Origin: Hypericum androsaemum
Lineage: Eukaryota > Streptophyta > Magnoliopsida > Malpighiales > Hypericaceae
Assembly: GCA_963995505.1 (NCBI GenBank)
Contig: OZ023186.1
Location: 20,157,570 to 20,221,569 of the forward strand
Direction: 5' to 3'
DNA: 64,000 nt
The notes beneath the pieces were generated by a model. That model did no database searches. It was given only the letters and a program-made list of their open reading frames with translations, and had not been told where the DNA came from. Positions within the stretch are counted from its first letter, which is position 1; each line of letters starts with the position of its first letter. Positions 17,880 to 50,733 of this stretch are shown one piece after another. Made by a program: the position numbers and the translations under genes.

Positions 17880-17895
17880 AATCTCGTCTTACGAT

Positions 17896-22625: not shown

Positions 22626-24878
22626 TCAAAATCTTTTGGTCTTCTCGATCACTATTGTCCAAATAGCTTGGACAACCTTGGATGGATGCATCTCAACAGA
22701 CTTCTTCAACTCTTCGTAGTCCTCTATCTCGTACTGTTTGTACATATCCTGCAGATTACCTTAATCAATCACCAGAAAATTCCAGGTGGTGGTTTATTAG
22801 ATTTTAAATGTGAAATATTAGCGTAGTCCCAAACCTCAAGATCAAGAGACGCATAAACTTGTTTCACTTTGGCAACAGACGTCGGATCTGCTTTCCCGTA
22901 GTTTTCCTGCATAAAAATAAATAAACTTTGAATGAACAATCTTATGCTTATGATTGATTATTAGTGGTAGAATTCAATTTTGGGAAGGAGTATCTATCTA
23001 GCTTACATGTAGAATTTTCTTCTGTTCCTCGTTAGCATGTTCTAAAGCTTTGACAATGAACCAAGAGCACTTGCCATCTTCAATATCTGTTCCATCCTGA
23101 GAATTGGAACATGATTAACAAATATTAACTAAACAGAGTCGCTAGACAAGATAGCATGTTTAGGTCTAAAAAAACATACCTTACCGGTCACCTCTGGGTC
23201 TTCAAAGCAATCTAGATAATCATTCTGTAGAATGATCGTGCACATTACAACGAATGGAAAATGTTCACCATTGAGAAAGTCGTACTAAATATGACCCGAA
23301 AATGTTTGCATTACCTGTATTTGGTAATACCTTGCAATCTGAATAAGTATGTCCTCAACTTCAAAATGGTCATCTAGACGCTCGCCTGCCAAAATCAAAG
23401 CACATGCTACCTATACAAAGCAAAATAACTAGAGACTTGCTTAGACACAGAAACATTAGATATAACTACCGCATGTATGGTCTGGTGGATACGATATCAT
23501 TTCTTAAATATGAGGTGGGAGGATCGAGTCCCAACGACTGTCCAAGATCCGAAATTGTGGAAACAATTTAAACCCACAATTTTTTTGACAAAAAAAAAAG
23601 AAATATCAGATATATGGCTCAATGGTAAACAAAAGGTAACACCTACTACTCACCGGTAGATAAAGCGCCCAATAAGTACTCTTGTACTTGGCAATGCAAC
23701 GATATCTGCATTTTTTGACACATTAAGTAGATGTATCGAACAATAAGGATGTCGAAGTAGCGTTGCGGATTCATCATGTTTTACTTACAATTCCATGGAG
23801 TATTTGGAGAGATGTGTCTGTCGCGGGTTAATGGCATCTAACATTTGTCCGGACGCAGTTTGGAATCCGACCTCGCTAAATAGATCGAGCAACTGCACGT
23901 AATAAGGCTTCTCGCTGAAGTGCTTCTTGAGGATTCTAAAGATGTGAGACTGCAGAAGTGCTGCATCATTTGTAGCAATCATGCCGACCTACGAACCGAA
24001 ACGAAAACATTATCCGATTGCTGTTACACCACCCAGATTATGCAGAAGATGGCAAATCATTTTCACCTGGGGCAATCTAAACCAGCAAGGTTGACCGCGA
24101 CGATCATACGAGTTGTCCATGATGTCATCAACAACAACGGTGCTTGCTTGAAGCTGCAACATTGAATTGGAAAGAGAAATTAAACTAGCAAGAATAGAAT
24201 TAGTAGACATTGTCGGATCATCAATTGACGACTCCTACATACCCACTGAATGCACCAACCAAGAACGCAGAGGAGCAAGTTCTCCTCATCAGATAGCTCT
24301 TCTCTTCCCTGAAATAGTTGGTAGCAACTGATGACGGTCCATATCCGGTTTAGCCTCCCTCTGGGCACATTATAGTCCAGCATCTGCAGGGCGATCAGAG
24401 GACATGAGCTAAGTCAGCAATCATTTCAACAGGAAAGAAATCAGAGAGAGAGAGATACTTGGTGGACCCATTGACGCGATTCATCGGTGAAATCGAAAGC
24501 CGTGTCGTGGAGTAGCTCCGATTTCAACATGGAATACACCTCCATAACGTTCCTCGTGGCATCTCCCCCTCCCCCTCCCCCTGCTGCTGATTCCTCATTC
24601 CTGAGTGTTCCAATGTGCCCTGGAAGCTGTTCATGAACACCAACAATATTAATATTAATGTTTGTAGTAATTTTCTCGGACTTTTCGACTTAATATATAA
24701 ATGGTTCAGAATTCTAACGTACAGTAGTAATAGCAGCAGCAGCAAATGCCTTGATGGAACCAAGAGGTGGCCATGCAGAGACAATTAGGGCAACAGAACG
24801 TGCAGGCGCCCAGTATCGCTTTCTTGGTTGAAGAAGAGGAATCTCCCTCGTTGGATTTGTAATGCATCTCTTCATCAT
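22626..24878 (-). CDS. FPS-like prenyl diphosphate synthase, copy 1 (intact, NDYLD variant)
   Basis: Eleven exons: 24878-24723, 24626-24459, 24383-24243, 24153-24067, 23988-23789, 23705-23654, 23410-23315, 23224-23180, 23096-23007, 22906-22835, 22748-22626, giving 409 codons with consistent phases and GT-AG sites. Family members join isopentenyl diphosphate to allylic diphosphates. The first exon ([14 protein letters not shown]...) is basic, non-acidic and Ala-rich, like a plastid transit peptide. The first Asp motif is intact ([16 protein letters not shown]) and SGQMLD is kept. The second motif reads NDYLD, positions -5/-4 before the first motif are Ser-Thr instead of aromatic, and the Lys-Thr pair is Lys-Ser. 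The protein ends KTKRF. A Gly run lies in exon 2. An intron present in the other copies between MLDYNVPRG and RLNR is absent. The product is unknown: not safely FPP. Confidence 0.9.
23465..23604 (+). mobile_element. tRNA-derived SINE in intron of FPS-like copy 1
   Basis: About 140 bp with an A-box-like TGGTCTGGTGG, a B-box-like GATCGAGTCCC and an A-rich 3' tail. Flanked by near-perfect 10-bp repeats ATTAGATATA (23455-23464) and ATCAGATATA (23605-23614). The homologous intron of copy 4 lacks it, so it arrived after that duplication. Confidence 0.75.
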
Positions 24879-24915
24879 ATTTCGCTTGCCAAATTAAGTC
24901 CTCGTCACGATGCCC

Positions 24916-24922
24916 ATTTATA
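24916..24922 (-). promoter_or_regulatory. candidate TATA box of FPS-like copy 1
   Basis: TATAAAT on the minus strand, 38 bp upstream of the chosen ATG. This implies a very short leader. Copy 4 has TATAAAT at 50801-50807, 68 bp upstream of its ATG. Confidence 0.4.
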
Positions 24923-27900
24923 GAGAGTAGAATCTTGTCAGTAACGGGCATAGGATCAAACCCGTTCAGTTTTAATATCATGTTAGAATTTTTATATTTA
25001 TCCAAAATACTTAAAATAATGAATAGTTATATTTTTCATAATTATAAACAAATCCACCACTCTTGAAACTATTAGATTCCTCTAGATAGCCATATTGTGC
25101 CAGCAATTATTGTGAACCACACGATATTTTTATGTTATTATATATATAAATAAATATATAAATAAATAAATAATATATATATATATATATAATTTGGTAC
25201 ACCTCTAAAATAAAAAATTGTTAAACATTTAAAATTGTCATCCCTCTAGTTTTACTTCTTCATATTTTCTGCTATTAAGCATTCGGGCAGACATGAAAAT
25301 TTGAACTGGCTTTTTAGTGTCCCTATCCAAATTTTGAGCTATTCAAAGCTTTAAGAAATTTGAATTATCACTACATATTAATTTTCTATAATTAAAGAAA
25401 TTTGATTGAAGTCTCAAAAATTATAAAGACTTCAATAAAATTGGATGATGACTATATATCAATTATTTTTGTACCCGACAATATATCAATCTTGCGTGAG
25501 ATATCCCTTCCAATCTTCGCAGCTCTCCAGTTTGCAGCGATTAGATAAAAGTGATATTCCTTATGGTATAAATCTCACGTCGTTTACGATATACACAAAG
25601 ATTCTTCGGTTTCATCTAGAGTTCCATGACTCTCGTTTCATATAACATGCGAAAGAAATTGTTCAAATTTATGTTAGCACGTAAATTAAACTATACAAAC
25701 TTCGCCTAGTGGTTCTAATGAGATTTCGTTTAAAATGATTGAGCGTATGAACTCCAATCGTTTATAGAAATTCATGAACTATCTATATAATAAATTTAAA
25801 TCCACCCAATGGCTAAACCATTGATGTATGTGCTCCCAAAAAATTGTTCAAACATGGTGATCTGCCAACGGCAAATAATAATAATGTCCATTTATTAGTC
25901 CATATTGACGATCGGATCTGAATTTGCATTGGCCCTTGTTCCAATGTCCTATTACCCAAACGGGCAACCTCCAATCCATCGACTCATGGGTGAAGCAGAT
26001 TTGGTTTTGAAGAATGTGCCATCTTGTCGTCTCAACACGTTAGCATGCATGCAGTATTTTTTTTCAAATTGTTGTTATTTAGAATTGAGAATCATAAAAT
26101 TTATTTAAAAATAATTTTTTTAATAATATATATTATATTCATAAAATTTGAACCGTATAAATCAATGCAGTATTAACGAAGCAGCTTCATGCTTCTGACG
26201 GAGTATGGTCAGGTCAAGTCAAGACCAAAGATATGTTTCTTAATTATTTCTCAATACTGAAACACGACCACGAGATGTATTTCTCATGTACATTTTTGTC
26301 TTCCACAAAAAAAAAAGTACATTTGTGTCAACTAACGGACAAATTTGCCACCCGCATAATCATTAAAAAATTCCGAGATCATATCTGGGTGATCGCAATG
26401 TGCAGGTTTGGAGATAAGATACTTTAGCTTTTGGTCAAGTAATAATCTAGTAGTTTGCAGAGTTAGATTTATTATAGTAATTTTAATGATATCTCGTTAT
26501 AAAAGAGTCCAAAATTTGGATTAAAATTAATCAATTTATTTAAAAAATATGAGAAATTAAATAATAATAGATTACCATATTTAATCAATTTCTTCGACTA
26601 AATAACTAATTATTTTGGGTAATGTGGACGAATAGTGCATTTCTTCCAAACTACATAGATTGGATATCACGTTGAAAAATGTGCCATTTAGTAGCATACC
26701 TTGACAGTCAACTACTTTTTTTTTTGAGGAAACAGTCAACTACTTGACTGCTTCTATTTACGTCCTAACCTTGAAGAATTTGCTTTTCCACGCCAACGTA
26801 TACAAAATCAAACAATTAGATCATTCTATTTGCTTGTAGCTCCCCATTTAATACCGGATAAAATAAATTTTCATTTTCATTTTGCCTGTGACGGGCCTGG
26901 AAGATGGGGACATGCGAAGTCTCCGCTTGGAATCGTGCCTTCTTAGTGTGCTATTTTGGATGTAAACAGATTGTTCTAATTTAGTCAAGATGTTTCGAAT
27001 TTGAACTCTTGAAAATAGAATATTGTTAAATATTTATTAGAAAAAATTTGCCATCTCTCAAATATCACACTTGACTCAATCTGGATTAGTCTACATAGTT
27101 ATATTTGGATATCAAAAAAAAAAAAAACTTGTACAAAATCAAGCCCATCTTGTCGTCTCAGTTCAATATCTTCTTAGCCGCAGGCAGGGACAGCCGAGAA
27201 ACGATTAACAGGGTCGGAACACCAAAGCTAATAACTGCATCTGGTATATTTATACATTTATGTAATATTTATAATGTTAAATTTTTAAGAACGTTTTTAC
27301 ATTAATATCACATTCGTTAGGAATCGAATTCTGAACGTCCGTAAATTCATATACATCATGTTCTGTACGAATAAGTATCTTTGAAAATATTTGTAATATT
27401 ATACAAAAAATGTTCGATGATTAAATGATCCAACGATAATATTGGTCTTGATCCTCTAGATCTTGAGGTAAGGATATTAATCTTTTAGTAAAAAAATTGC
27501 AGGGTTTAAAATAGGATATGAATCTAACCTAGTAAAAACTCATATTCTTATCCTTTGCCAAAACAAGGTAGATAATACGGAAGTAGGCGAGCCGTCACGA
27601 GGCAGAGGCCGGGGCCCCTCTGACGCAACAACTATTTTAATGAATCTCCCAAATTAAAGTTGAGCTGGGGGACCCTATTTAGTGCAGCTTTACCGTTGAG
27701 ATTTCTTATACTTGCAAGTTGGAAGACTGAATCAAAAATTTTAAAATAAAAAATACAGAACTATAGTTACAAACTGATTGTAAATCCTAAAAACTTTCAA
27801 ACAAGAACACTAGTCTGTCTTGCTTTTTTGTTTTTTTTTCGGAGTTCAAAATCTAGTTCTGAAATACGATCTCAAAATTCCACTCCGTCTTTACTTATTT

Positions 27901-27931
27901 GAAAAGTAAAAACACTAACAAATATCCTTAA
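24923..27931. other. AT-rich intergenic between FPS-like copies 1 and 2
   Basis: Holds an AT/AAAT microsatellite at about 25138-25195 and a block at 25877-26345 that recurs at 44067-44222 and 51320-51800 (shared GTCAAGTCAAGACCA and TTGCATTGGCC words), marking the upstream part of the FPS duplication unit. No gene was seen. Confidence 0.55.
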
Positions 27932-30134
27932 TCAAACAATAAGAGTGCCCTCAAACCCTTTGTGATGATTCATCATCCTCTCCATAAACGTTCTCCAAAT
28001 AGCTTGTACAACATTGCTTGGATGCATCTCAACAGACTTCTTTAGTTCTTCGAAGCTCCTGTTTTGGTGTTGTGTATACACATTCTGCATATATGCAAGA
28101 TTTCATCATTCTAAAACTCGTGAAACAAATCGAAGCCTTATCTTAATTTATGCCACAATTTTGCGTCAAAAATTCATAAACACAAACCTGAAGATCAAGA
28201 ATTTTATAAAAGTCTCTCACTTTAGCGATACACGCTGGATCAGATTTTCCGTAATTCTCCTAATAACGCAAAGAAATTTAGTAAACGAAACAATTGTATG
28301 CTAATAAGATGGCATAGTCCAATTTGGGGAATGAGCTCTTGGCTTACCCACAGAATTTTCTTTTGTTCTTCATTTGCAAGTTCTAGTGCTTTGACAATAA
28401 ACCAAGAGCACTTTCCATCTTCAATATCTGTTCCCACCTATAAAATGTGACAATTTTTTTAAACTAAAATATGTAGAAGGTGGATAACTTTTTGTATATG
28501 GTAAAATTATCATACCTTGCCAGTAATATTTGGGTCTCCAAAGCAATCTAGATAATCGTCCTTCAAAATGTTCATACATATCATAAGCTCAAAAGACAAT
28601 TAGCACCCTATACTTGAAATCGGTACAGAAACTTGACGAGAATTAATTACTTGTATTTGGTAATAGTTCATCATCTCAACAAGTATGTCCTTCATTTCAA
28701 TGTGGACATCTAGACGCTCACCTGCCAAAATCAATGCGCATGCAACCTATATGCAGCAATAAACAAAGTTATATTATCAGAGGCACAACTGATAAGTGAG
28801 AATGTCTATGAAACCAATCCGCTACTCAATATGCTTCCCCATTTGACAAATTTCAGATAGTAATTAGGGATAATCGGGATTTGGATTCGGATAATCGGGA
28901 TCCGGATTCAAGTGCTACTCATATATTTAGTAGCAAAGCATGAAGAAGGTAACACTCACCGGCAAGTACAACGAGTAATAGGCAGTCTTGTATTTGGCAA
29001 TCCAAAGATATCTGTATCGAATAATGACGATCTCTAATTAGCATCAACAGAAGTGGAAACAAACCATTGATTTTTCGGATTAGATTAACGAAAGAAGTCG
29101 AATTACATGAATCGTTTATACTCACAATTTCATGGAGTACTTGGACAGGTCTTTCTCTCTTTCAAGTGGTGTAATGACATCCAGCATTTGGCCAGACATT
29201 GTTTGGAATCCCACCTCGTTGAACAGATCAAACAGCTGCACATAGTAAGGCTTATCCCTAAAGTGCTTCTTTAGGATCCTAAATATATGAGCCTGCAGAA
29301 CTGCTGCATCATTCGCAGCAATCATTCCGACCTGCGATCGAAGGGGAACAAGAGGAAGCATTATCCGATTGCGATTACCAAGTAACTCGGGAATATCAGC
29401 AGAGCGAATTGATGAGAGAACCTGGGGCAATCTAAACTAGCAAGGCCGACCACGACGAGTATAAGAGTTGTCCATAATGTCATCAACAACAAGCGCGAAT
29501 GCATGAAGCTGCAACGAAACATCGATCAAAAAGAGAAATCAAAGCATGAAGAATCAAATTGAGCTTGTTCGTGGCAGTAGACATTTCGTACCCACTCGAT
29601 GCACCAACCAAGAACACAGGCAAGAAAGCTCTCCTCATCGGATGACTCTTTCCCGTCCTGCAACACTTGGTAGCAATCGACGACAGAAAATATCCGGTTT
29701 AACTTACCTGTGAAGCAAAAGTTTAGAGGAAAATGTCAAAATTATGAGGCAAATTTGTTGCATAGGTAGAGAAAGTTTTCGTTCCTACTACCTCTTGGGA
29801 CATTATAGTCCAGCATCTGATGGATCCATTGCCGAGATTCATCGGTGAATTCGAAAGCCGGGTCGTGGAGTAGCTCCGACTTCAACGTGGAATACACCTC
29901 CATAATCTTCCTCTTTGCATCTCCGTCGGTGACCGCAATGGTTTGAGTTCGTCCTGAAGTAGGAGAAATTGTTGCCCTCTGCACATACTATAATTGATTA
30001 ATCTGTTCTTGTTACATACTAATAAATGGGACCAATTGGATCTCACTCACCGAAGCACTAGCAACGCACTTGATCGAACCCTTTCGCGGGTTGGGAGGTT
30101 GAAGATGAACGCCGGGAACACATCTTGTGATCAT
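27932..30134 (-). pseudogene. FPS-like copy 2 (nonsense codon in exon 5)
   Basis: All exon blocks from a transit-like first exon (MITRCVPGVHLQPPNPRKGS) to a terminal exon ending KGFEGTLIV are present with usable splice sites. The first motif exon reads [15 protein letters not shown] followed by TAG (29437-29439) where copies 1, 3 and 4 have Trp, so the protein would stop before the catalytic second half. The rest is closer to ordinary FPS: second motif DDYLD, YKTAYYSLYLP, and Phe at position -5 (Ala at -4). The intron between exons 2 and 3 is precisely missing ([13 protein letters not shown] is continuous). The variant C-terminus lacks the KRF/KRQK-like end. A sequencing error at one base is the main alternative to a true pseudogene. 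Confidence 0.85.
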
Positions 30135-32303
30135 GTTTCAGAAATATGTTTCTTCTCTTGATCGTACTGGAGCTAAAAGCTTGTCAAGGTTATGACATAA
30201 ATAGAAGTATTTCTTAGGGCCGAACATATAATTCGATATTCAATATCTGAATCCTGAAAATTTTTGCATTCGATTCAAATTATGAGTTTTTGCGAAAATT
30301 TTAGTTCATATTCGGATAGTAAAATATAGTTGTTACATCCAATTTTTTGCTACCCATTTTTCCACATAGTACAGAACAGAAACATTGCATTTGGTCACTG
30401 TTGGTTACATGTGGGCTGCAAAATGCAATGAATTAGTTCTACTGCCATTAATTAGACTTGTAATTTGGGAACGGAACTCTTGCGGACTCATCTCGTAAAT
30501 CAAACAATTCGGATTTTGCAAAGAATTGAACATACGTTTTGTAAATCGGATAATTCGGATTATCTTGTATGACCCAAATCTTTACCCTCTTAATAAATGT
30601 CTAATTGTCATCCCTTCGGATATAAGATTATTCACTATTTGGATTTGAATTTGGATAGTAACATAACTAAATCGGATAGTTTGAATAATGATAAATTCGG
30701 TAATTCGAATTCGGATTATCTTAATGCTCACCCTTGTACCCACCTTACAATACGCAAATTACGGGGTGAAATGTAATGTTTTGATAACTGAAAAAAGGTT
30801 GGAAAAAAATGAAGATATGTTTGGTCGAATACCATGCAATTGTCAAATATTGGTGCAGATGTCAAAGTACGGATGTAAAATGTTGAATATCTATGAAGTT
30901 TTTGGAAAATTAGTGCAAATTTTTTAAGATTATTAGAAAGTTTTTAAAACTATAACGAAGCTTACAGAAGATTTTGAATCAAAATTCTAAACAGTCAATG
31001 TTGCCCATTTGGGAATTTAGACCCCGCTGCCAATGTTGACTAAATGGACATGCATTGGAATGTATGTTTTCTTTTTAAAGTAGATGGGTTTTATTAGAAT
31101 AACAAAAGTATATCAAATATATAATCCCCAGGCATTTTTTTGCAGTATTTAAATAATATTGTGCAAAAAATTAGAGTTACATAAAGCAAATAAATTACAT
31201 TATATAGAAAACTCAGATTATATCAGATTGGACTAAAGAAACATTAATTTTTGCATTTCAAGTCATGGGATTAAAATTGTGGCACGTATGTTGAGAATTA
31301 GGTTAATTATAAGAGTGGTGGGTTTATTTATAAGTGTGAAAAATTAACCAATTTATTGTCTTAAAGTTTTGGATTGATTATAAAGATTCTAACATAGTAT
31401 CAGTTGATCTCATGGTCATTGTTGTGCTAATATGATCCTATTTTTTCACAATTTGGTAAAATCAAAGACTTGTTTATAAGTATGAAAAATCCATTAACTC
31501 ATTGTCTTAAGATTTCGATACAGAGATTCTAATAAAGATTAAACCACGCATTTGGATCCAAAGAACTAGCACTTGAGCATTAATATAACATGCAGCTGAA
31601 TCAAAATTCAGATCAGTAGTCTAAACGGATAATGGTACGTATGACTACGTAAGATATACTCTACCTTAAACTATATCTTTAAATGTTTTCCATATACTAG
31701 ATCCGATCAAATTTTTTAAAACCTCACGCCGGGTAGGGTAGCGTCCTGACATACTGGGAACTTCGATGGAGCAGATTTGGAACCGAGGAAGATGCATGGG
31801 GACATTTTGGTCTTGAGTTGACCATACTGCGTTGAAAGAACCTTCTACAAGGTTACGACACATTTATTCTGAGACAATAAGATGGCTTGATTTTGTACAA
31901 ATTGGCGGCCTTCTTCAAGGTTATGACAAAAGAAGAAGGATTCAAGTAGTTCACCTGTAAACCGATCCGAGGTTGCCAATTTTTTTATATATTACCTGAT
32001 ATCTTGACTTAATAATTTAATTCAGATTTAAATTTGATAAATTTTTTTTAACAAATATGTAACACTAACACGTTTATAATTATGAAGAGAAAATGTCTTT
32101 TGATAAGTTATAAAAACTCTATGATGAGTGGTCCATTTGGATAATAGAACATTGGATAAGAGCCATGCAACCATTTGGATAATAGAACATTGGAATAAGA
32201 GCCATGCAAGGTAGGGTTTCGTCATAGTGTTGCACCTGTTTTATGACAAGGGCGTTCTATTCCATGAGAATGGGACGATTGATGCTGCACATGCTATAAT
32301 TTA
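30135..32303. other. intergenic upstream of FPS-like copy 2
   Basis: 31663-31870 matches 46767-46950 upstream of copy 3 (shared CGTCCTGACATACTG and TTGACCATA), but lies ~1.2 kb further from its gene, so DNA was inserted here or lost there. 32125-32210 has a ~40-bp tandem duplication (unit around AATAGAACATTGG). No gene was seen. Confidence 0.5.
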
Positions 32304-32780
32304 CATAGTTTTAAAATACGGGTTTTGGTACGGGTCAGATTTCTCCTGTACTCTGGTCCGACCAATAATTCGACCGGTTGAATCAGAAATTTTTTAATAT
32401 ACCCAATATATATTATTATGTATCCAGCTCATCCCACCTAATGGTGTTTGTTTGCTTTATATTGAAGAGAGGGCCTCGGGGAAACAAGAAAATATCTCGC
32501 CAATTGTCCCCTCGTAGGGTTAGGAGTCCCTTCTCCTTTATGAGAGCTTATGTCCCTTTTTGAGGGTTTCTTTCTTTCTTTCCTTCGATTCTCGGGTCAC
32601 AGAGGGTGGGGGAGAGAAGGTGGGGGATCATGGGAAGGGGGTGATGGTGGCCGTTGACCAAGGAGAGACGGGCGCGGCGCTAGGGTTCTCTCCCACAGAT
32701 TCTGACGTACGGGGCCCCAATATCTGGCGGGTGAGGATAGAAGGAAAGGGGAAGATCAGCCGACCTCAGTTCTTAAAGAA

Positions 32781-33925: not shown

Positions 33926-34012
33926 GTTAGCAAGAAGATGGAGTATGCCATCGAAGACCAAGACATGTCACTTTTTTCGGCGGAGGCTGAGGATCAGCCC
34001 TGCCGATCTCAA

Positions 34013-39703: not shown

Positions 39704-39708
39704 TAGTA

Positions 39709-40186
39709 TGTTGGGTATGGAGACTTCGGATACCGCGGGGGGGCGTAGCCCCCGTCCAGAACTGGGATCGACCTGCGTGTACGCATCGACGACGAAATGA
39801 AGTGTGGACAAAAATGCCCCTGCGTGTGTTGGTACTATAAATACCCACCTCACCTTCCCTGTATTCTTCTTCTTCTTCCTGGCAGACAGAGAGACATTTT
39901 AGAGAGAGAGAGAGAGAGAAAAGAGGAGAGAGAAACTACCATTGTTGAGCCTGCGTAGCTCCAAAGTGTAGATCGAGCTTGATATAGTGAAATCTCCTGG
40001 CTTGGTACGCCCCCGGACGTAGATCGGTCAAGATCGAACCGGGTTACCAAATTTCTTGTTCTTGTTTGGCTGTGGGTCTTCTTTCTTTGTGCTTGTCATC
40101 GATCTCCTCGTTGTGTTCGTAGATCTTGCTCCGATCTTGTTCGTTGCGTTGATTGGGTCCACAGAAAGTGGGTTGATTTCCCAACA
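39709..40186 (+). repeat. copia 5' LTR
   Basis: 478 bp, TGTTGGG...CCCAACA ends. Contains CTATAAATACCC (TATA box, ~39836) and a GA microsatellite at ~39904-39920. Confidence 0.93.
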
Positions 40187-40188
40187 AC

Positions 40189-40200
40189 TGGTATCAGAGC
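40189..40200 (+). other. primer-binding site (initiator tRNA-Met)
   Basis: TGGTATCAGAGC, two bases after the 5' LTR: the standard plant copia primer-binding site. Confidence 0.95.
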
Positions 40201-40215
40201 ACCTGGGTTTAGGGC

Positions 40216-42096
40216 GTGGTAGGAGCAATCACGATGGGTGATGTGAGATCGCCCGTGGAGAAGTTCGATGGCGTCGACTATGGCTTCTGGAAGATGCAAG
40301 TAGAAGACTACTTGTATGGCAAAGATTTGCACTTGCCGCTTGATGGGAAGAAGCCTGAGGACATGAAGGAAGAGGAGTGGAAGCTCCTAGATCGGAAAGC
40401 GATGAGCGTGGTGCGCTTGTCTTTGTCTAGGAACGTGGCCTTGCACACAGTAAAGTCAAAGACCACGAAGGAGATGTTGGAGACGTTGTCCGAGATGTAC
40501 GAGAAGCCATCGGCGGCCAACAAAGTTCACTTGATGAGGAAGCTCTTCAACCTTAAGATGGCGGAGAGTACCTCGGTATCGGTACACCTCCACGAGTTCA
40601 ATGCGACCATCGCTTCTTTGAGCTCGGTGAAGATTGACTTCGATGATGAGGTACAAGCTCTAATTTTGCTAAGTTCCTTACCCGATAGTTGGAATGGCAC
40701 GGTCACGGCGGTGAGTGCCTCGGCGGGGAAGGTGGTACTCAAGTTGGATGAGGTGAGGGACTTGATTATGAGTGAGGAGATTCGTAGGAAAGAGTCCGGA
40801 GTAGCCTCGGGTTCGGCTTTGAATGCTAGCAATAGAGGGAGGTCCGAATCTAAGTGGAAGGGGAAGAAGGACCGGAGCAGGTCCAAGTCCAAATCGAAGG
40901 ATGGTTCGAAGAGGGACATGAGTTCCATTAAATGCTGGAACTGTGAGAAGTTTGGCCACTTTAGAACCCAATGCAAGGCACCGAAGAAGGAGGACAAGTC
41001 GGCAAATGTAATAACAGAGGACCATGGGGATGCATTGATCTTGAGTGTTAGTAGCCCGTTGGAGGCCTGGGTATTGGATTCAGGAGCATCATTCCACTCT
41101 TGTAGCGACAAGGGGATAATGGAATTGTATACCCCAGGAGAATTTGGCAAGGTTTATCTAGCCGATGATGAGCCATTGCAAATTGTGGGTAAAGGAGATG
41201 TGAGAATCAATACTCCCAATGGATCATTGTTATTGTTGAAGGGGGTGAGACACATCCCAGGGTTAAGAAGAAATTTGCTTTCCGTGGGACAACTAGATGA
41301 AGAGGGGTACAATGTAACCTTTGGTTGTCGGACATGGAAGATCACCAAGGGAGCTAGAGTGGTGGCTCGTGGTGAGAAGGAAGGTACGTTGTACATGACA
41401 AGGAACACTCATGAAAGTATTGATCTTGTAGGAGCAACCAATGATGCAGATCTGTGGCATAGTAGGCTTGGCCACATGAGTGAGAAGGGGATGTGGGTGC
41501 TTTGTTCAAAGGGGAAGCTACCGGGTCTAAAGACCGTGGACGTGGGTCTTTGTGAAGACTGTGTATTTGGGAAGCAGAAGAGGGTGAGCTTCTCAAGAAG
41601 TGGTAGAACTCCTAAGCCGGAGAAGCTTGAATTGGTCCACAGTGATCTGTGGGGACCGGCACCGGTGGCATCCGTGGGTGGTTCCTTGTATTACATGACT
41701 TTCATAGATGACTCTACAAGGAAGGTGTGGGTCTACTTCCTAAAGCATAAGTCTGATGCTTTCAATGCCTTCAAGAAGTGGAAGGCTCTTGTGGAGAACG
41801 AGACGAATCTCAAGGTGAAGTGCTTGAGGTCCGATAATGGTGGTGAGTACGAGCTTCAAGAGTTCAAAGATTTTTGTGCGAAGTATGGGATTCGCATGGA
41901 AAAGACGGTAGCTGGGACCCCCCAGCAAAATGGCATAGCTGAGAGGATGAACCGAACACTAAATGAGAGAGCAAGGGCCATGAGGTTGAAGAGTGGCCTC
42001 CCGAAGATGTTTTGGGCAGATGCTGTAAACACTGCAGCATTCTTGATCAACAGAGGGCCATCAACTCCTAAACGGTACGCATCGACGACGAAATGA
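40216..42096 (+). CDS. copia gag-protease-integrase polyprotein, truncated by deletion
   Basis: 626-codon frame, likely initiating at MGDVRSPVEKFDGVDY (40234). Order: gag, zinc knuckle CWNCEKFGHFRTQC, protease WVLDSGASFHSC, LWHSRLGHMSEKG, integrase HSDLWGPAPV and FIDDSTRKVWVYFLK with RSDNGGEYE and QNGIAERMN. After NRGPSTPKR it runs into LTR sequence as YASTTK and stops. There are no other breaks, consistent with a young element. RT is absent. Confidence 0.95.
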   Translation: MVGAITMGDVRSPVEKFDGVDYGFWKMQVEDYLYGKDLHLPLDGKKPEDMKEEEWKLLDRKAMSVVRLSLSRNVALHTVKSKTTKEMLETLSEMYEKPSAANKVHLMRKLFNLKMAESTSVSVHLHEFNATIASLSSVKIDFDDEVQALILLSSLPDSWNGTVTAVSASAGKVVLKLDEVRDLIMSEEIRRKESGVASGSALNASNRGRSESKWKGKKDRSRSKSKSKDGSKRDMSSIKCWNCEKFGHFRTQCKAPKKEDKSANVITEDHGDALILSVSSPLEAWVLDSGASFHSCSDKGIMELYTPGEFGKVYLADDEPLQIVGKGDVRINTPNGSLLLLKGVRHIPGLRRNLLSVGQLDEEGYNVTFGCRTWKITKGARVVARGEKEGTLYMTRNTHESIDLVGATNDADLWHSRLGHMSEKGMWVLCSKGKLPGLKTVDVGLCEDCVFGKQKRVSFSRSGRTPKPEKLELVHSDLWGPAPVASVGGSLYYMTFIDDSTRKVWVYFLKHKSDAFNAFKKWKALVENETNLKVKCLRSDNGGEYELQEFKDFCAKYGIRMEKTVAGTPQQNGIAERMNRTLNERARAMRLKSGLPKMFWADAVNTAAFLINRGPSTPKRYASTTK

Positions 42097-42482
42097 AGTG
42101 TGGACAAAAATGCCCCTGCATGTGTTGGTACTATAAATACCCACCTCACCTTCCCTGTATTCTTCTTCTTCTTCCTGGCAGACAGAGAGACATTTTAGAG
42201 AGAGAGAGAGAGAGAAAAGAGGAGAGAGAAACTACCATTGTTGAGCCTGCGTAGCTCCAAAGTGTAGATCGAGCTTGATATAGTGAAATCTCCTGGCTTG
42301 GTACGCCCCCGGACGTAGATCGGTCAAGATCGAACCGGGTTACCAAATTTCTTGTTCTTGTTTGGCTGTGGGTCTTCTTTCTTTGTGCTTGTCATCGATT
42401 TCCTCGTTGTGTTCGTAGATCTTGCTCCGATCTTGTTTGTTGCGTTGATTGGGTCCACAGAAAGTGGGTTGATTTCCCAACA
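42075..42482 (+). repeat. copia 3' LTR, 5'-truncated
   Basis: 408 bp, nearly identical to the 3' part of the 5' LTR. Its first ~70 bp were removed by the internal deletion. Confidence 0.93.
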
Positions 42483-42613
42483 TAGTACAGTGGCTCAAAT
42501 GCAGATGAAAACTTGGGAAATAACAGTAAAAGAATCGGTTAAAGAATTGATACTTCTAAAAATCTTGAGCATGCTGCTCTAGAGAACCGTTTTCCTTCAT
42601 GACACAGCCGAGA

Positions 42614-44057
42614 TCAGCCTGTAGCTTGTCTACATCTACTCTTCGGGATGACCAATGCTGCTAGCTTCTTCTCAGGTCCAACACTTCTCTTCGTATTCTG
42701 TCGGTTGCAAGGATCTTCTCCGAAATCTGCTCGAAGCTTTCGTGGATACTGGTCAGGAGCCGGTAGGCCTGGCTTCCAACCGAGTCTTTCTTCGCTTCCC
42801 TGAGTAAAATTGAAGATATGATTAAGCTTCAAAGTCCTAGAACATGCAATTGAATGGATCAAATGTAATGCAGCACTTTGCAGGAGTTTCATTCAGATCA
42901 ATGGATACAGAGTAAACCACCGACGCCAAGAGCCAAATTAAATTTAGAAAGGGAAAAGAAAACCAGACCTGTAAACTATTTCATCTAGAACAGGATAAGT
43001 TCGATCAAGGCGTTCTTGGATCGAGTTACTCTATAGCTGAAGATCTCTAGTGTCTTTCAAGATATGCTCGATGTCAGCTTCTTGTTTCCGACTGTTCTTC
43101 GTGATCTCCTTTATTCGCTCAACATAAGATGCTCTTGATGGAAGCTTTGGCTGCTTCTCAATTTCCAAAGAGAGACTTGATATTTCCACGTCCCTAAGCA
43201 CGAGATAGAACATCATCTTAGAATACGCCAACGGAATACATATGCTAGGATTGCAGTCCAATAACATACCGCCTACTGATCTCAGACAAGACGAGGTGTT
43301 TTTCCCGCTCAAAATCTCTCAGCTTTTTGAAGCTTCTCTTGAGCCCCTGGTAAGCCAGCATACAGAGAATCCTCTGCAGTTCTCTTCTTCTCTTCCGTCA
43401 ACTTTTTGAAAGAATCCCAGATCAAGAGAGATGCTAGAGAATCAGTGCTACTCTTCAGTAACGATTTGGACAATCTAGAACAAATCCTTCTACCATAAAT
43501 AAGCAAATCAAAGATCCCAACAGATATACTGAACAAAAATAATCAGCATCCCACCACTGTGAATCGAGTTCCAAAGCATGTGACTTTTTAACGCTTATTT
43601 GCTCGTCAAGCTGCTTCAGGTAGAAGTCAATAGAACGTGGCTCATCAGATACCATGCTTGCTGCTGCTTTCAACCACTCGAGCTCTTCTTCCAGATGCTT
43701 TATATTTAGTGTCTTCGCTCTCAATTGCTCCTTCTTCTGCGTTTGTTCTACCTCATTATTTCCCTAAGCAAGAACAAGCATAAACAGACACCATTAGCAA
43801 CTACTATCCATTCTCCCACATCCATAGTACCGAATATCCCATCACCAACCACATGTAGCACATGTACCTTAGATGACTCATCCGGGGGTAAGCTCTTTCC
43901 GCCATGAACCCACGAAGCCTTGACAGACGAGGCATTTTCAGCTCCACCATTCAGCACGGCTGGCGCCATATCCTGGTTATCGAAACCAACACTTTCCTTC
44001 TCGTCCAACTCCTCCGCATTACTATCAACACAAGACCGAGACGATGATGATGATAAT
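42614..44057 (-). pseudogene. CCDC22-like, copy A (truncated, broken)
   Basis: Collinear with copy B (58826-60225) over exons 2-6, including introns, but lacks exon 1 and the start of exon 2. Homology ends at about 44057 in the Ser-rich stretch. An extra base in an A run (near 43325) shifts exon 4 (EKLQKAERF then stop), and a TAG replaces a Leu codon after RDLQL (~43031). It cannot encode the CCDC22 protein. Confidence 0.9.
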
Positions 44058-44066
44058 GTTTAATAA

Positions 44067-44222
44067 TGTCCATTATTGGTCCATATTGTCGACCGGATAT
44101 CAATTGCATTGGCCCTTATTCCGATGTTCTATTATCCAAATGAGCAACCTCCACCGATAGATTCATGGGTGAAGCAGCTTCATGCTTTTGACACAGTACG
44201 TCGGGTCAAGTCAAGACTAAAG
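44067..44222. repeat. orphan FPS-upstream block
   Basis: Matches the upstream blocks of FPS-like copies 1 (25877-26225) and 4 (51320-51760) in the same orientation, but no FPS exons lie to its left: the CCDC22 copy begins there. Confidence 0.7.
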
Positions 44223-44265
44223 TGTTAAAAGTAATGAGAGTTATATATATTAATAGACAAGGAAT

Positions 44266-44303
<38 letters not shown>

Positions 44304-44935
44304 TAAACTAGAACGGCTAGGAGGAGCCAGCTATTTACATTAATTATAAGTAGCCGTTAGTTAGAGTCCCAAGGCTCAACAGGCTTGATTATGCACAATG
44401 ATTAATAGATGCTTAATGGAGACTTCTGAATGGAGGAAAGAGACGTTGTTGATCATTGGAGAACAATGAGCAGAAACATCCACTTGTCAGAGCACCACCA
44501 GATTAAGCTTAAAGAGTCGAGAGAGGCTGCTGCAGAATTATGCAGCAGAACAGAGGAGAGCCAGAGCAAGTTGCAGACTGCAGGGGAGATGATCTTGGAC
44601 TGATTCATTCTTCAATAATTCACCATGATCTTCACATTCTTCAACACTCCCCCTCAAGTTGGGGAGAAAATATCACAAATACTCAACTTGGATAGATGAT
44701 ATTCAAATGTACTTGGTCCAACAGATTTGGTGAAGATATCTGCTGTCTGTTCTTCACTAGGAGTAAATGGAGTAGAGATCAACCCTTCTTGTACCTTATC
44801 TCTGATGTAAAGACAGTCAATTTCTATATGTTTAGTCCTTTCATAGAATACAGGGCTGGAGGCAGTATAGATTGCAGCCTTATTATCACAAAACAGCTTC
44901 ATAGGCTTTGAAACTAGAAGATGTAATTTTGGATA
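44223..44935 (-). mobile_element. copia 3' remnant: LTR plus RNase H end
   Basis: 44654-44935 encodes the copia RNase H C-terminus ([45 protein letters not shown]). A GAGGGGGAGTG polypurine tract then leads into a ~424-bp LTR (44223-44646) with TGTT...AACA ends and an AT microsatellite at 44272-44300. The element is cut off at 44935, where FPS-like copy 3 sequence starts. Confidence 0.88.
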
Positions 44936-45067
44936 ATTCGGATCCGGTTTCAAGTGCTACTCATATATTTAGTAGCATATCATAAAGAAGGTGTTGAGGT
45001 ACAAAAATAATCTCGGCATTGTCAACATATTTTGAGATACCCGGTCCGCAACAGAAGGTAACACTCA

Positions 45068-46625
45068 CCGGCAAGTACAACGAGTAATAGGCAGTCTTGT
45101 ATTTGGCAATCCAACGATATCTGAATTGAGTAATAATGATCTCTAATTAGCATCAACAAAAGTAGATGGCAACCGTTTGAATTGCAGATTAGATTAACAA
45201 AAGAAGTCGCATTACGTTGCCAAAAGGCCTGCCCCGTGATGCACAAGGCGTACATAAATTGGCAGAAGTCTGTGATCAATCCCTCACAAATGGTAAAAAT
45301 TTACTTGAATCACACGTTTATACTCACAATTCCATGAAGTAGTTGAACATATGTTTCTCTCTTTCAAGTGGGGTAGTGACATCCAACATTTGGCCAGACA
45401 TAGTTTGGAATCCCACCTCGTTGAACAAATCAAGCAACTGCACATAGTAAGGCTTATCCCTGAAGTGCTTCTTTAGGATCCTAAAGATATGAGCCTGCAG
45501 AAGTGCTGCATCATTCGTTGCAATCATGCCGACCTGCAATCGAAGGGGAACGAGAGGGAGAATTATGCGATTGCCATTACCATGTAGGTCAAGAATAGCA
45601 GCTGAGCAAGTTGATGAGAGAACCTGGGGCAATCTAAACCAGCAAGGTCGACCGCGACGAGTATAAGAGTTGTCCATAATGTCATCAACAACAAGCTCGA
45701 ATGCATGAAGCTGCAACGAAACATCGATCAGAAAGAGAAATCAAAGTAGGAAGGATCAAATTAAAGCTTGTTCCTGGAAGTAGAAATTGTTCGTACCCAC
45801 TCGATGCACCAACCAAGAACACAGACAAGAAAGCTCTGCTCCTCGGATGACTCTTTTCCGTCCTGCAACACTTTGTAGCAATCGACGACAGAAAATATCC
45901 GGTTTAGCTTACCTGTGAAGCAAAAGTTTAGACGGACCTGTCAAAAAAATGAGGCCTGCTTTGGGAGTGTGTTCGCAAGAATGAAACCGAGGAATTGACA
46001 AAATTCTTGCTAATGCTCCTCCAATGGAAATTCATTTTCTTGGTTGGAAAAGTTGTGATTCCTACCTCTTGGCACATTATAGTCCAGCATCTGCAAGGAG
46101 ATCAGAGGACATAAGGAAAAAACTTTAGCCAGTTAAGTTGGCAACCATTTCAGCAGAAAGAAATTAGAAAGGGAGGGAGAGTTATACTTGGTGTATCCAT
46201 TGACGAGATTTGTCAGTGAATTCAAAAGCCGGGTCATGGAGTAGCTCGGACTTCAACGTGGAATACACCTCCATAAGCTTCCTCTTTGCATCTTCATCCG
46301 TGTGAGTGATGGTTTGAGTTCGTCCTGAAGCAGGAGGCATTGTTGCCCTCTGCACGAAGGAATGAAGAAAGAAAGCACATATAACTAATTAAGTTGTTCA
46401 TCTCCACATAATAATCAATGGAATAATTGGATCACTTACACTTAGCCTGACCGTACAAAGCGTAGACATGAATTGACAGAATTTCAAAATTCCATTCATG
46501 TTGAGTATAATATGGTGTAAAAAAAATTGGATCCCACTCACCATATCATTAGCAACGCACTTGATTGAACCCTTTCGTGGGTTGGGAGGCTGAAGATGAA
46601 CAAGAGGAATACATCTTGTGATCAT
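45068..46625 (-). pseudogene. FPS-like copy 3, 3'-truncated
   Basis: Exons 1-7 are readable: transit-like MITRCIPLVHLQPPNPRKGS, the exon ending [50 protein letters not shown], an exon with SGQMLD, and YRWIAKYKTAYYSLYLP. Exons 8-12, with the second aspartate motif, are missing: homology ends near 44935 at a copia remnant. The reading frame of the remaining exons is open. It resembles copy 2 most (Phe at -5, Lys-Thr retained, shared flanks) but keeps Trp where copy 2 has a stop and keeps the exon 2/3 intron. Two or three short insertions lie in or beside its introns. Confidence 0.9.
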
Positions 46626-48371
46626 GTTTCTGCTCTTCTATTAAGGAAAAAATAAATTGAGAAATATATTTCTTCTCTTGACCGAACTGGGGCTAAAAGC
46701 TTCAAACTGCTGGTCTCTTGTCAAGGTTAAGACATAAATACAAGTAGTGATCACCTTGCAATATGTTAATTATATCTCTAAATGTTTATCCATATACTTA
46801 TGGGGTAGGGTTTCGTCCTGACATACTGAGACCCGAGGAAGATGCGTGTGGGGAGAAGCCGTGAAAGACGACTTTGACTCGGGACACCTCTTTGGTCTTT
46901 ACTTGACCATATTGTGTTTGAAAGAACCGCTAACCAAGAGGTTACGAGTTTGTTGTCTTGAAAACGTAATAATAATGTTAATTCAAGTTTGAGCTCGGTA
47001 GTATCTTTAAAATGCAACCAAAAATTTCAATGAGTACATAACATTGATGCGTTTACAAATATTCGAATTCAGAATTTCTTTGTTAAATTAGAAAAATTCT
47101 CGAATAAGTAGTCCAACATTGGAATAAGGGCCATGCAATTGAGATCCGGTCGTCAAGATGGACTACTAAATGGAGGGTTTTTTACTTTTTTCATGTTTTC
47201 CGACTTTGAAGTCGGTTTAAAAAGTTCTCTTTTCAGGTGTACGGGTTATTTTTTTCGTCAACTTTCTCCGGTTTATGAAACTTTTTTTTTTCGGACTGGC
47301 CTGGTGTACGAGATCTTTTCCCGTAGAGCATGAACGAGAAAAGATCTCGTACACCGGGCCATTACTAGGGTGCCCGATTATTCTGCAGTAAAAGCAGAAT
47401 TCGTGAAGCCTTGACGCCCTCGCTCTCCCTTCTTGCCACTTCCCCTTCCATTCGATTATTAGATAATGTTTGGATTAGACTAAATATTGAGATTTAATTA
47501 TTGCAATTAGCAGGAGAGGAGGTTTAGTGAAGGCGAGGTCTGGACAGTTAGGAGCGAAGAAAGGATGGAGGCTGGGAGAGAGTCGCAGCTGCAATTAGGT
47601 AAAGCGAAGGGCACCAACGCCACTGTTGTATGGGCACTAACACCGTTTGTTTATTTTTTGTGCATTTCCGTGGAGCAACGTTAAGATATTCTAATTTGGA
47701 AATGGTTTGGACTAGTTAGTTTCTGATTAATTACAAGGCTAAATTCTGAAAACGTGAACTATAAGGTACTAACAGGTACTTTTCCTTGTTTTAAATATCT
47801 GATCTTTTTGGGCGCTCCCAGAACCCGATAAGCTCTGTGGAATTTTCGTTTAACGACGTAACTATATTGTGGTTTTTCTGTACTAAGTGCGGTACTTATC
47901 ACAAAATTATCGCTTCCTAGAATCTTAATTATTGAATATAGGAGAGGGAGTAAAATTTTCGTTCGACGCGAAGTGAGATTTAAGCGTTTTGAGAATTGGT
48001 ACGGAGTTAGATAGAGTTTTTTTTATAAATAATCGAATAATTTAATTTTCTCTGATATGAATTTATATAGTTATAAGTTATAACTATATAACAAATAATT
48101 TTAGGAAAAAGAGAAGTTACTCCACTTCAATGCCAACCATTGGATGCTGAATGCCGGCACAAGTATGATTAGGAAATCCGGTACATGAAATACAAATTAC
48201 ATCAAATTTATTTGAAAAAAGAGAGAAAACTACGTCTCTAAGATTAAGTGAAATAGAAATTAAACTAAACTTATTCGCGAAAAGTAAATAGAGAGAATAC
48301 TACGTCTCGAAGAACAAGACATTTCGAGATGGTACATAAGAGGATCACAAAGCGATCTGTGTGGTTGCTTA
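46626..48371. other. intergenic between FPS-like copies 3 and 4
   Basis: Upstream sequence of copy 3 shared with copy 2 (46767-46950), then AT-rich DNA. 47325-47360 contains an inverted repeat of GAAAAGATCTCGTACACC with 47310-47325. 48170-48371 is the 3' flank shared with copy 1. No gene was seen. Confidence 0.5.
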
Positions 48372-50733
48372 TCAAAATCTTTTCGTCTTCTCGATCGCTA
48401 TTGTCCAAATAGCTTGGACAACTTTGCATGGATGCTTCTCAACAGACTTCTTTAACTCTTCGTATCCCTCTATCTCGTACTGTTTGTACATATTCTGCAC
48501 AATTACGCAATCAATCACTAGAAAATTATTTGTCAGCTTGATTTATACGAAAAATGTCATCGTAGTCCCAAACCTGAAGGTCGAGAGACACATAAACTTC
48601 TTTCACTTTGGCAACACGCGTCGGATCAGGTTTCCCGTAGTTCTCCTGAAAAAAAGCACTTTGAGTGAACAATCTTATGCTTATGATGATTGATGATAAT
48701 ACATTCCAAATTTGGGAAGGAGCTTCTAGCTTACATGGAGGATTTTCTTTTGTATCTCATTAGCATGTTCTAGTGCTTTGACAATGAACCAAGAGCACTT
48801 GCCATCTTCAATATCTGTCCCATCCTGAGAAATGAAGCATGATTAACAAACATTTTAACCATAGAGAGAAGCGGATAAATTAATAGACACATAATAAAAT
48901 GCGCTTTACATTTTCCGGATGAATTGAATGCCCAACGATTTCTTCTATACAAGATAATATGTTTATGTCTTAAAAAACATACCTTACCGGTCACCTCTGG
49001 GTCTTCAAAGCAATCTAGATAATCATTCTGCAGAATGTTCATGCACATAACAATATGAAATTTGAAATTAGCTTGGAACATATTTTGAGGAAAAAAAACC
49101 TCAAGCTAGCTATTTAAGCATGTAAATTACCTGTATTTGGTAATACGTTGTGATCTCAACAAGTATGTCCTCAACTTCATAATGGTCATTTAGACGCTCA
49201 CCTGCCAAAATCAATGCACATGCAACCTATACGTAGCAATAATTAGACTTACTTGGACAGAACAACATCATATATGGCTCAATCTTGAAGAAGGTAACAC
49301 CTACTCACCGGTAGATAAACCAAACAATAAACACCCTTATACTTGGCAATGCGACGATATCTGTAATTTTTCGATAAGTAGATATATTATTAACTCTAGG
49401 AAAAAATGTTTCAAGTTACATCATAGTTTCATCACGTTTTACTTACAATTCCATGGAGTATTCGGACAGATCTGTCTCTCGCGGGGTAATGGCATCCAAC
49501 ATTTGTCCGGACGCAGTTTGGAATCCGACCTGCGCAATCACAGTCTCTAGTTTCCATCATATTGCTTCATCCACCTTCATCCAGGGAATTAGGAAACACG
49601 ATCACCTCGTTAAATAGATCAAGCAACTGCACGTAATAAGGCTTCTCGCTGAAGTGCTTCTTGAGGATTCTGAAGATGTGACTCTGCAGAAGTGCTGCAT
49701 CATTTGTAGCAATCGTGCCGACCTGCGAACGGAACAAAAAGCATCATCCAATTGCTGTTACACCCAGATTATGCAGAAGATGGCAAATCATTCACCTGGG
49801 GCAATCTAAACCAACAGGGTTGACCGCGACGATCATACGAGTTGTCCATGATGTCATCAACAACAACCGTGCTTGCTTGAAGCTGCAACATTGAATTGGA
49901 AAGACAGAGTAATTAGGAAGAATAGAATTAAGATTATTCGCGGCAAGTAGACAATATTAGCTTAATTTGATCCTCCATACCCATTGAATGCACCAACCAA
50001 GAACGCAGAGGAGGAAGTTCTCCTCATTAGATAGCTCTTCTCTTCCCTGCAATAGCTGGTAGCAACTGATGACGGTCCATATCCGGTTTAGCCTACCTGT
50101 GATGATAATCAATGAGGCAAAATACTCGTCGAATCACTAATTATTCTCTTTTTCGATTATACAGCTCATGAAAGTTGATGTTCCTACCTCTGGGCACATT
50201 ATAGTCCAGCATCTGGAGGCAGATCAGAGGACATAAGGAGAAATTAATTAGTACCCTTAGCCAGTTAAGTTGGAAACCATTTCAACAGAGAGAAATAACA
50301 GAGAGAGAGAGAGATACTTGGTTGATCCATTGACGAGATTCATCGGTGAATTCGAAAGCCGGGTCGTGGAGTAGCTCCGCTTTCAACGTGGAATACACCT
50401 CCAAAACGTTCCTGGTCGCATCCCCCGCTGCTGATTCCTCATTCCTGAGGGTTCCAATGTGTCCTGAAGCACTCTGCAGGAAGAGAACAGAAGAAAAAGA
50501 AAGATCATGAACACCAACAATATTAATGTATGTAATAATTTTCTCGGACTTCCCGACTTAATACGATGGTTAAAATTCTAACGTACGGTTGTAGCAGCAG
50601 CACATGACTTGATCGAACCACGAGGTGGCCATGCAGAGACAATTAGGTTAACAGGACGTGCAGGCGCCCAGTATGGCTTTCCTGGTTGAAAAGGAATTTC
50701 CTTCACGGGATTGATAATGCATCTTCTCATCAT
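48372..50733 (-). CDS. FPS-like prenyl diphosphate synthase, copy 4 (intact, NDYLD variant)
   Basis: Thirteen exons in frame from 50733 ([20 protein letters not shown], plastid-transit-like exon 50733-50587; exon 2 50473-50318) to a stop at 48372, about 402 codons. It shares copy 1's signature: [41 protein letters not shown] and terminal KTKRF. Lys-Thr is Lys-Gly (YKGVYC). Compared with the other three copies it has an additional 76-bp intron (49530-49605) between ..LDLFNE and VGFQTAS.., and it keeps the intron after MLDYNVPRG that copy 1 lacks. No stops or bad splice sites were found. It is probably expressed and enzymatically altered relative to FPS. The product cannot be read from sequence. 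Confidence 0.9.

Follow-up and report, generated by a model that had tools for sequence, protein, structure and literature searches.

Two intact FPS-like genes in a tandem cluster of Hypericum androsaemum resemble CDS and Eucommia trans-polyisoprene synthases at different active-site positions

Four active-site changes were described for CDS (chrysanthemyl diphosphate synthase, CDS/FDS-5, of Asteraceae): T201 to G or S, F239 to Y, D243 to N and R351 to G (PMC3518182). The FPS-derived trans-polyisoprene synthases (EuTPTs) of Eucommia ulmoides are marked by a Cys-Ala pair at positions −5/−4 of the first Asp-rich motif, and this pair acts as a switch that sets FPP or polyisoprene as the product (PMC7887238). 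According to two further reports, a yeast FPPS with Y90A makes GGPP besides FPP (PMC11048977), and FPS in which the second motif is mutated at its first Asp is much less active and has a higher Km for IPP (PMC11765665). Among the FPS of Malpighiales, HbFPS3 of Hevea was grouped with MeFPS3, RcFPS2 and JcFPS2, and the transcripts of HbFPS3, MeFPS3 and RcFPS2 were quantified (PMC4613314). The passages on these FPS concern cloning and expression and contain no enzyme assay.

The analysed stretch of DNA (the window) comprises 64,000 nucleotides. A six-frame motif scan and spliced alignment to a plant FPS identified four FPS-like genes in tandem on the minus strand, and the spliced models of the outer copies have the same limits, 22626 and 50733, as were proposed in a preliminary description of this DNA. 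The cluster is real and does not represent a chance match, since copy 4 matches the Pfam family polyprenyl_synt (PF00348) at 5e-67 with 226 bits (cut-off 27), and matches of its core to chains of plant FPS reach 4.5e-134. No fifth copy is present in the window, where tblastn gave no matches outside the four models. Retrotransposon-like sequence lies between the copies.

Copy 1 (22626..24878) has 11 exons encoding 409 aa, and copy 4 (48372..50733) has 13 exons encoding 402 aa, 12 of which form the core, as reported for euphorbiaceous FPS genes. All introns of both genes (10/10 and 12/12) are of the GT-AG type, and neither contains a stop or frameshift. Each begins with an additional exon encoding an N-terminal extension (24723..24878 in copy 1, 50587..50733 in copy 4), and the first 50 residues include eight basic and one acidic residue in copy 1 and seven basic and one acidic in copy 4. 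TATA-like boxes are located 44 bases upstream of the ATG of copy 1 and 74–82 bases upstream of that of copy 4. Copy 2 (27932..30134, minus strand) is near-complete and carries one stop, a TAG at 29439 in place of the TGG of copies 1 and 3. Copy 3 (45069..46625, minus strand) is truncated after its seventh exon and is followed by a frame reading like copia RNase H; motif scan, spliced alignment and tblastn of the window did not reveal its second-motif exon.

The 10-residue stretch of the first Asp-rich motif (24115..24144 in copy 1, 49844..49873 in copy 4) has Ser-Thr at −5/−4 of DDIMD, so that the aromatic pair of canonical plant FPS is absent. Copy 1 reads YKSTY at 23672..23686 (T201 to S, then Y204 to W) and copy 4 YKGVY at 49327..49341 (T201 to G, then Y204 to C). 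The second Asp-rich motif is NDYLD (23210..23224 and 49013..49027), and YYQIQ ends the preceding exon (YYQ for YFQ, F239 to Y); both copies thus read YYQIQNDYLD in place of the DDxxD with preceding FQ of canonical plant FPS. Copy 2 has F-A at −5/−4, YKT and YYQIQDDYLD, and copy 3 has F-E and YKT. Motif scan and spliced alignment thus agree with the preliminary description on the Ser-Thr pair, YKS/YKG and NDYLD of the intact copies, on DDYLD of copy 2 and on YKT of copies 2 and 3. An assembly error as the origin of the Asn and the Ser-Thr pair can be ruled out, because both are common to two separate copies. Copies 1 and 4 also show K57R and T111D, and their C-terminus is EKTKRF instead of KIYKRQK, without KRxK; the placement of R351 in the alignment is uncertain. 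D103, D107, R112, R113, D174, K200 and K257 are kept, as are R60 and Q96.

These changes are rare among relatives. Among 39 canonical-type sequences chosen by hand, D243 and F239 are invariant (39/39 each), and T201 is Thr and position −4 is Phe in 38/39 each. The second motif begins with Asp in 226 of 232 relatives taken from the best 120 matches listed in each of three protein searches. A single relative, Linum P0122, has Asn, and in five the pattern was unmatched; one of the five, the CDS-like Ambrosia P0205, reads NDYHD. We found no literature test of the exact Ser-Thr pair.

The cores of copies 1 and 4 differ by 44.5 nonsynonymous and 30.5 synonymous changes, which corresponds to a pN/pS of 0.38 (one-sided binomial p 3.8e-5 under equal probability of all mutations), and dN/dS was 0.35–0.48 by three methods. 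Both copies are under purifying selection. Their common stem branch is threefold longer than that of copies 2 and 3 (0.30 vs. 0.10), which is also compatible with relaxed constraint. The data did not support the idea that the catalytic segment holds most of the differences between the two copies, as their clustering in the YK segment was not significant (2143 of 20000 shuffles were as dense; the −5/−4 change counts exclude Hevea P0189). The selection data bear on the view that the genes are relaxed or non-catalytic paralogues, either decaying duplicates or a regulatory subunit, for which the small subunits of GGPP synthases are a precedent. The long stem, two broken copies out of four, the joint alteration of several normally invariant sites and the retrotransposon-like sequence between the copies would fit this view. 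The low pN/pS, the retention of the three Asp of the first motif and of K200 and K257, and the existence of two separate copies free of stop or frameshift argue against it, and we regard it as a rather unlikely explanation.

The explanation that we prefer, to which we assign about an even chance, is that both intact copies are functional and encode trans-prenyl diphosphate synthases that arose from an old FPS lineage by rewiring and whose main product is probably not FPP. Ser-Thr in place of the aromatic pair would open the gate, so that a chain longer than C15 could enter the tunnel, and the changed acceptor side (T201S/G, F239Y, D243N, K57R, C-terminus without KRxK) would hold IPP differently. 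FPP would then probably be replaced by another prenyl diphosphate. Head-to-tail condensation to a longer or otherwise altered chain is the most probable route to it, and irregular (allylic-allylic) coupling a less probable one. Since the N-terminal exon is basic and poor in acidic residues, the proteins may be imported into an organelle. The intact spliced frames, the kept catalytic residues, purifying selection and the TATA-like boxes favour this explanation, as do the Eucommia −5/−4 switch, the yeast Y90A variant, the changes in the FPS3-type clade and the HbFPS3, MeFPS3 and RcFPS2 transcripts. The broken copies, the long stem, the lack of significant clustering in the YK segment and the lowered FPS activity upon mutation of the first Asp count against it. 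Furthermore, weaker IPP binding and longer chains work in opposite directions, and Ser/Thr are less frequent in the extension than in the transit peptides of CDS.

FPS-derived insect terpene synthases ionise a prenyl diphosphate without IPP condensation, and copies 1 and 4 could in principle have become terpene synthases of this IDS type. Several changes on the IPP side together with an intact first Asp motif would suit such a role; nevertheless R60, Q96 and R113 are kept and the Arg replacing K57 remains basic. To our knowledge there is no plant case, and we consider this very unlikely.

A phylogeny of the copies, as suggested in the preliminary description, was calculated with 46 public proteins hand-picked for spread of orders, which were also used for the residue table. 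No close ortholog was found among the 120 matches listed by the protein search, where identities were 51–64%. The high score of the top match, Ilex P0001, is due to a repeated domain, and P0001, P0002, P0025, P0029 and P0060 were left out of the 120 rows as fused or repeated predictions. A search with only residues 245–320 of copy 4 added Linum and Erythroxylum relatives that were absent from the best 120 of the whole-protein search. The window copies and the FPS3-type Malpighiales clade were joined with support of 98/97, and of 100/96 in a second tree, the window copies being the sister group to all seven Malpighiales members sampled. Since this sister clade includes HbFPS3, already grouped with other FPS (PMC4613314), the system, put forward earlier as a candidate for an undescribed one, is not wholly undescribed. 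One clade of the window copies with four canonical Malpighiales FPS rows was rejected (AU p 1.4e-6; the gene prediction behind one row, Hevea P0189, is garbled). A clade of copies 1 and 4 with Ambrosia P0205 was likewise rejected (AU p 0.0006), as was a clade of the window copies with six Asteraceae rows (AU p 0.014). Descent from the Asteraceae CDS duplication and direct CDS orthology are thus rejected by the AU tests, in which the CDS-like P0205 served as proxy for CDS. Because the grouping with Ambrosia was rejected, the likeness of copies 1 and 4 to CDS is read as convergence.

The same tests bear on a role in trans-polyisoprene (gutta) synthesis, as in EuTPT3. A clade uniting the window copies, the Malpighiales proteins and EuTPT3 was not rejected (AU p 0.22), and the −5/−4 pair is non-aromatic as in EuTPT1/3/5, but the window copies with EuTPT3 alone were rejected (AU p 0.024). 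EuTPT3 keeps T201, F239 and D243, all changed in copies 1 and 4. The EuTPTs, located at the Golgi, have an extra insertion and no targeting extension; copies 1 and 4 have an N-terminal extension and lack the insertion, copy 1 having the same length there as copy 4. We would therefore rate polyisoprene formation as very unlikely. As the −5/−4 pair switches the Eucommia enzymes, the earlier suggestion that this position affects chain length in the present genes is reasonable.

The preliminary description had linked Asn at the second motif to CDS-type enzymes. This was correct, and the resemblance extends to three of the four CDS changes (T201 to G/S, F239 to Y, D243 to N). The earlier interpretation, of irregular or altered-length products, is partly supported. 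Copies 1 and 4 might be pictured as joining a pair of allylic diphosphates (DMAPP, or bigger molecules that an open tunnel would admit) in a non-head-to-tail manner, independently of the Asteraceae, which we judge unlikely. Besides the three replacements, the C-terminus is changed where CDS lost R351, the N-terminal extension is CDS-like, and Ambrosia P0205 combines NDYHD and YKS with an extension. Data from mealybug enzymes point the other way: D308N in transIDS5 abolished irregular coupling, the natural NDYYD enzyme transIDS11 makes GPP and FPP and no irregular product, and the NDYCD enzyme transIDS10 was inactive in both tests. Moreover, F239Y is already present in the DDYLD copy 2, T201 is also changed in relatives that keep D243, and R351 is not placed with certainty. 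A second, independent plant origin of such coupling from FPS, with a CDS-like acceptor site and an opened, polyisoprene-synthase-like gate in an organelle-targeted protein, appears more doubtful still. If it were true, coupling of allylic diphosphates of GPP size or larger could give skeletons, branched or cyclopropyl, that are new to plants.

The CDS rewiring concerns the acceptor substrate and the EuTPT rewiring product size, and related forms of both are combined here in one protein, in a lineage that groups neither with CDS-type proteins nor, clearly, with EuTPT. The cluster is thus a natural experiment on the residues that govern substrate choice and chain length. It also draws attention to the neglected FPS3-type clade of Malpighiales, present for instance in rubber tree and castor bean, whose members are annotated as FPS and depart from the canonical active site partly in the same way. 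Copies 1 and 4 share the first Asp-rich motif with canonical plant FPS but differ in the aromatic pair, T201, F239, D243 and the KRxK C-terminus. With CDS they have in common, besides the three replacements, that the C-terminus is altered and the N-terminus extended, but their origin in the tree, with P0205 as proxy for CDS, is separate. From the EuTPTs, likewise non-aromatic at −5/−4, they are set apart by Ser-Thr instead of Cys-Ala. None of the aligned relatives has an N-terminal exon of the kind found in copies 1 and 4. The closest relatives, the FPS3-type proteins of Hevea, Ricinus, Mercurialis, Linum and Erythroxylum, have Arg or Lys at position 55 like the window copies and, like copies 1 and 4, lack an aromatic residue at −4 (Ala in 7/7), have an altered C-terminus without KRxK and show a changed T201 (7/7 sampled). 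Their −5/−4 pair is C-A, F-A or Y-A instead of S-T, and they keep F239 and, except for Linum P0122, D243, whereas copies 1 and 4 are changed at both.

The window is plant DNA rich in retrotransposon-like sequence and carries four tandem genes resembling farnesyl diphosphate synthase (FPS), all on the minus strand. Each copy was modelled by spliced alignment to Eucommia FPS2, a plant FPS of known structure, and first exons were added manually with conserved start codons and donor sites as guides. Copy 1 (22626-24878) has 11 exons and encodes 409 residues, copy 4 (48372-50733) has 13 exons and encodes 402 residues, and in both spliced models every intron is GT-AG and stops and frameshifts are absent. 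Copy 2 (27932-30134) carries a single TAG at a codon that reads TGG in copies 1 and 3. Copy 3 (45069-46625) ends after the exon bearing YKT and is followed by a copia RNase H-like frame at 44654-44956, named by motifs alone. Window-wide tblastn found no further pieces of the FPS-like family besides the four copies. The motifs and cluster limits proposed in the preliminary description were thus borne out by motif scan, spliced models and tblastn.

With its 12 core exons, copy 4 matches the exon count that the available text of PMC4613314 gives for each of its ten euphorbiaceous FPS genes. It has 11 core introns, while two are cleanly missing from copy 1, two from copy 2 and one from copy 3. At one site only copy 4 has an intron, despite its sister relationship with copy 1, which implies repeated losses, losses spread by conversion or a gain in copy 4. 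In the 200 bases before the ATG, TATA-like boxes lie at 44 and 118 bases in copy 1 and at 74 and 82 bases in copy 4; the same pattern found none in copies 2 and 3.

The LTR-like ends of a copia-like element at 39779-42482 share 99.3% identity over 408 bases, suggesting a recent insertion. The element directly adjoins a duplicated segment (42482-44054 and 58694-60230, 91.6% identical). Pieces at 60571-60945 and 59133-59507 matched the Pfam CCDC22 N-terminal and coiled-coil domains and the piece between them had no Pfam match. The FPS cluster thus seems to have received a partial copy of a CCDC22-like gene. Elsewhere, direct repeats at 12696-13430 and 17895-18757 (93-98% identical) flank broken copia polyprotein-like frames at about 13973-17888. 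An NBS-LRR-like open frame (4570-7971, minus strand, 1133 aa) reads by motifs as an intact disease-resistance protein, and its start recurs as a 256-base fragment of 93% similarity at 19196-19449.

Across 329 core codons copies 1 and 4 differ by 44.5 nonsynonymous and 30.5 synonymous changes (pN/pS 0.38), which departs from neutrality with p 3.8e-5 in a one-sided binomial test taking all mutations as equally likely. Their dN/dS (NG86, YN00, ML) was 0.35-0.48 for the core, compared with 0.49-0.63 for the N-terminal part. For copies 2 and 3 pN/pS was 0.19 over the shared core, and the stem of copies 1 and 4 is threefold longer than that of copies 2 and 3 (0.30 vs 0.10). Both pairs are shaped by selection, which is looser in copies 1 and 4. 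Copies 1 and 4 differ at 5 of 8 residues in the YK segment, a clustering that was not significant (equally dense in 2143 of 20000 shuffles). It is rather unlikely that copies 1 and 4 are decaying or non-catalytic.

Residues are numbered as in human FPS (PMC3518182), anchored on motifs rather than on an alignment of the human protein. Copies 1 and 4 keep G56, R60, Q96, D103, D104, D107, R112, R113, Q171, D174, K200, Q240, D244, D247, K257, D261 and K266. At the 98/99 gate, positions -5/-4 before the DDIMD motif, both have S-T instead of Y-F. T201 is replaced by S in copy 1 and G in copy 4, and Y204 by W and C, respectively. Both copies further carry Y for F at 239, N for D at 243 (the first Asp of the second motif), R for K at 57, R for G at 55, D for T at 111 and D for I/V at 258. 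All 39 canonical-type rows have F239 and D243, while 38 carry T at 201 (Morella has S) and 38 carry F at -4 (Oryza has A). At the C-termini of copies 1 and 4 EKTKRF replaces KIYKRQK, a change that may involve R351. Another FPS paralogue without the aromatic pair, Oryza meyeriana P0136, has S-A at -5/-4, DDITD as first motif and a very long branch. On sequence criteria, copies 1 and 4 are two intact, constrained, FPS-derived genes altered at gate and acceptor site. A literature search, with figures unsearchable and subscription journals mostly outside it, found neither this combination described nor "NDYLD" as a word.

A whole-protein search matched 1128 proteins; the best 120 of these (51-64% identity) are canonical FPS by family name and motif, apart from Hevea FPS3 (P0040) and predictions that are fused or repeated. 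Searching with residues 245-320 only brought up Erythroxylum P0121/P0123 and Linum P0122. A profile search, scoring the 7999 candidates with most words in common, gave high ranks to Hevea FPS3, the Erythroxylum pair, Linum, Ricinus and two Mercurialis proteins, six of these seven Malpighiales proteins being rows of the query profile and only Mercurialis P0206 new. The repeat proteins Ambrosia P0205 and Ilex P0001 ranked above all seven, and canonical Camellia P0039 above Ricinus. In a 51-row tree, to be read with long branches, weak backbone support and tested groups chosen once the first searches had been run, the window copies and the seven formed one clade (98/97) with the window copies as sister to the seven (100/97); the clade persisted with four extra Asteraceae rows (100/96). 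A single clade of window copies, the seven and four canonical Malpighiales rows was rejected (AU p 1.4e-6). On this tree N at 243 requires two changes (Linum; copies 1 and 4), altered T201 three and non-F at -4 three. The independent Asp-to-Asn case, Linum trigynum P0122, has C-A at -5/-4, YKS and NDYLD, and its database cluster represents 11 sequences. In the tandem FPS cluster of Euphorbia hirta, DDYxD is common to all members according to excerpts of PMC11765665.

In the Eucommia trans-polyisoprene synthases (EuTPT), Cys94-Ala95 at -5/-4 is required for polyisoprene synthesis, and its replacement by Tyr-Phe abolishes this synthesis, with the dimer switching to the FPS form; the reverse kind of change in EuFPS gave products longer than FPP, in a garbled sentence of the source (excerpts of PMC7887238). 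Yeast FPPS Y90A makes GGPP in addition to FPP (PMC11048977, in part). By these precedents, set by other residues, the S-T pair of copies 1 and 4 would be expected to give an open gate. That both are catalytically active and mainly make something other than FPP is about an even call, and this and the other readings of the two copies overlap, so that their probabilities are not exclusive. A joint clade of window copies and the seven with EuTPT3 was not rejected (AU p 0.22); window copies with EuTPT3 alone were (AU p 0.024).

Chrysanthemyl diphosphate synthase (CDS) is changed at four substrate sites, with G or S in place of T201, Y of F239, N of D243 and G of R351. It also has some 50 extra residues at its N-terminus, interpreted as a plastid transit peptide (PMC3518182, available text). 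Copies 1 and 4 have the first three replacements identical in kind and are likewise extended, with some 72 and 65 residues ahead of the core. Their first 50 residues include 8 and 7 basic and one acidic residue each. Ser/Thr number only 5 and 6, well under the CDS average of 22.7% Ser and 9.44% Thr in the excerpt, and we therefore name no organelle. Irregular coupling by copies 1 and 4, as in CDS, appears unlikely. T201 is altered in all seven Malpighiales relatives, six of which retain D243, F239Y is already present in copy 2, which retains DDYLD, and a mutated first Asp in the second motif makes FPS less active and increases its Km for IPP (PMC11765665, in part). In mealybugs, D308N removed irregular coupling from transIDS5, the natural NDYYD enzyme transIDS11 yields GPP and FPP but no irregular product, and transIDS10 with NDYCD showed no activity in either test. 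N at 243 may thus be taken as a lead toward CDS-like function, not as diagnostic of it. The assayed CDS enzymes were represented in the tree by their nearest proxy, Ambrosia artemisiifolia P0205. This CDS-like paralogue, from a genus outside the tribe Anthemideae, has NDYHD, YKS and a Ser-rich extension, its predicted protein contains two repeats, and it groups with Asteraceae. Joining copies 1 and 4 to it was rejected (p 0.0006), so their CDS-like residues look like convergence.
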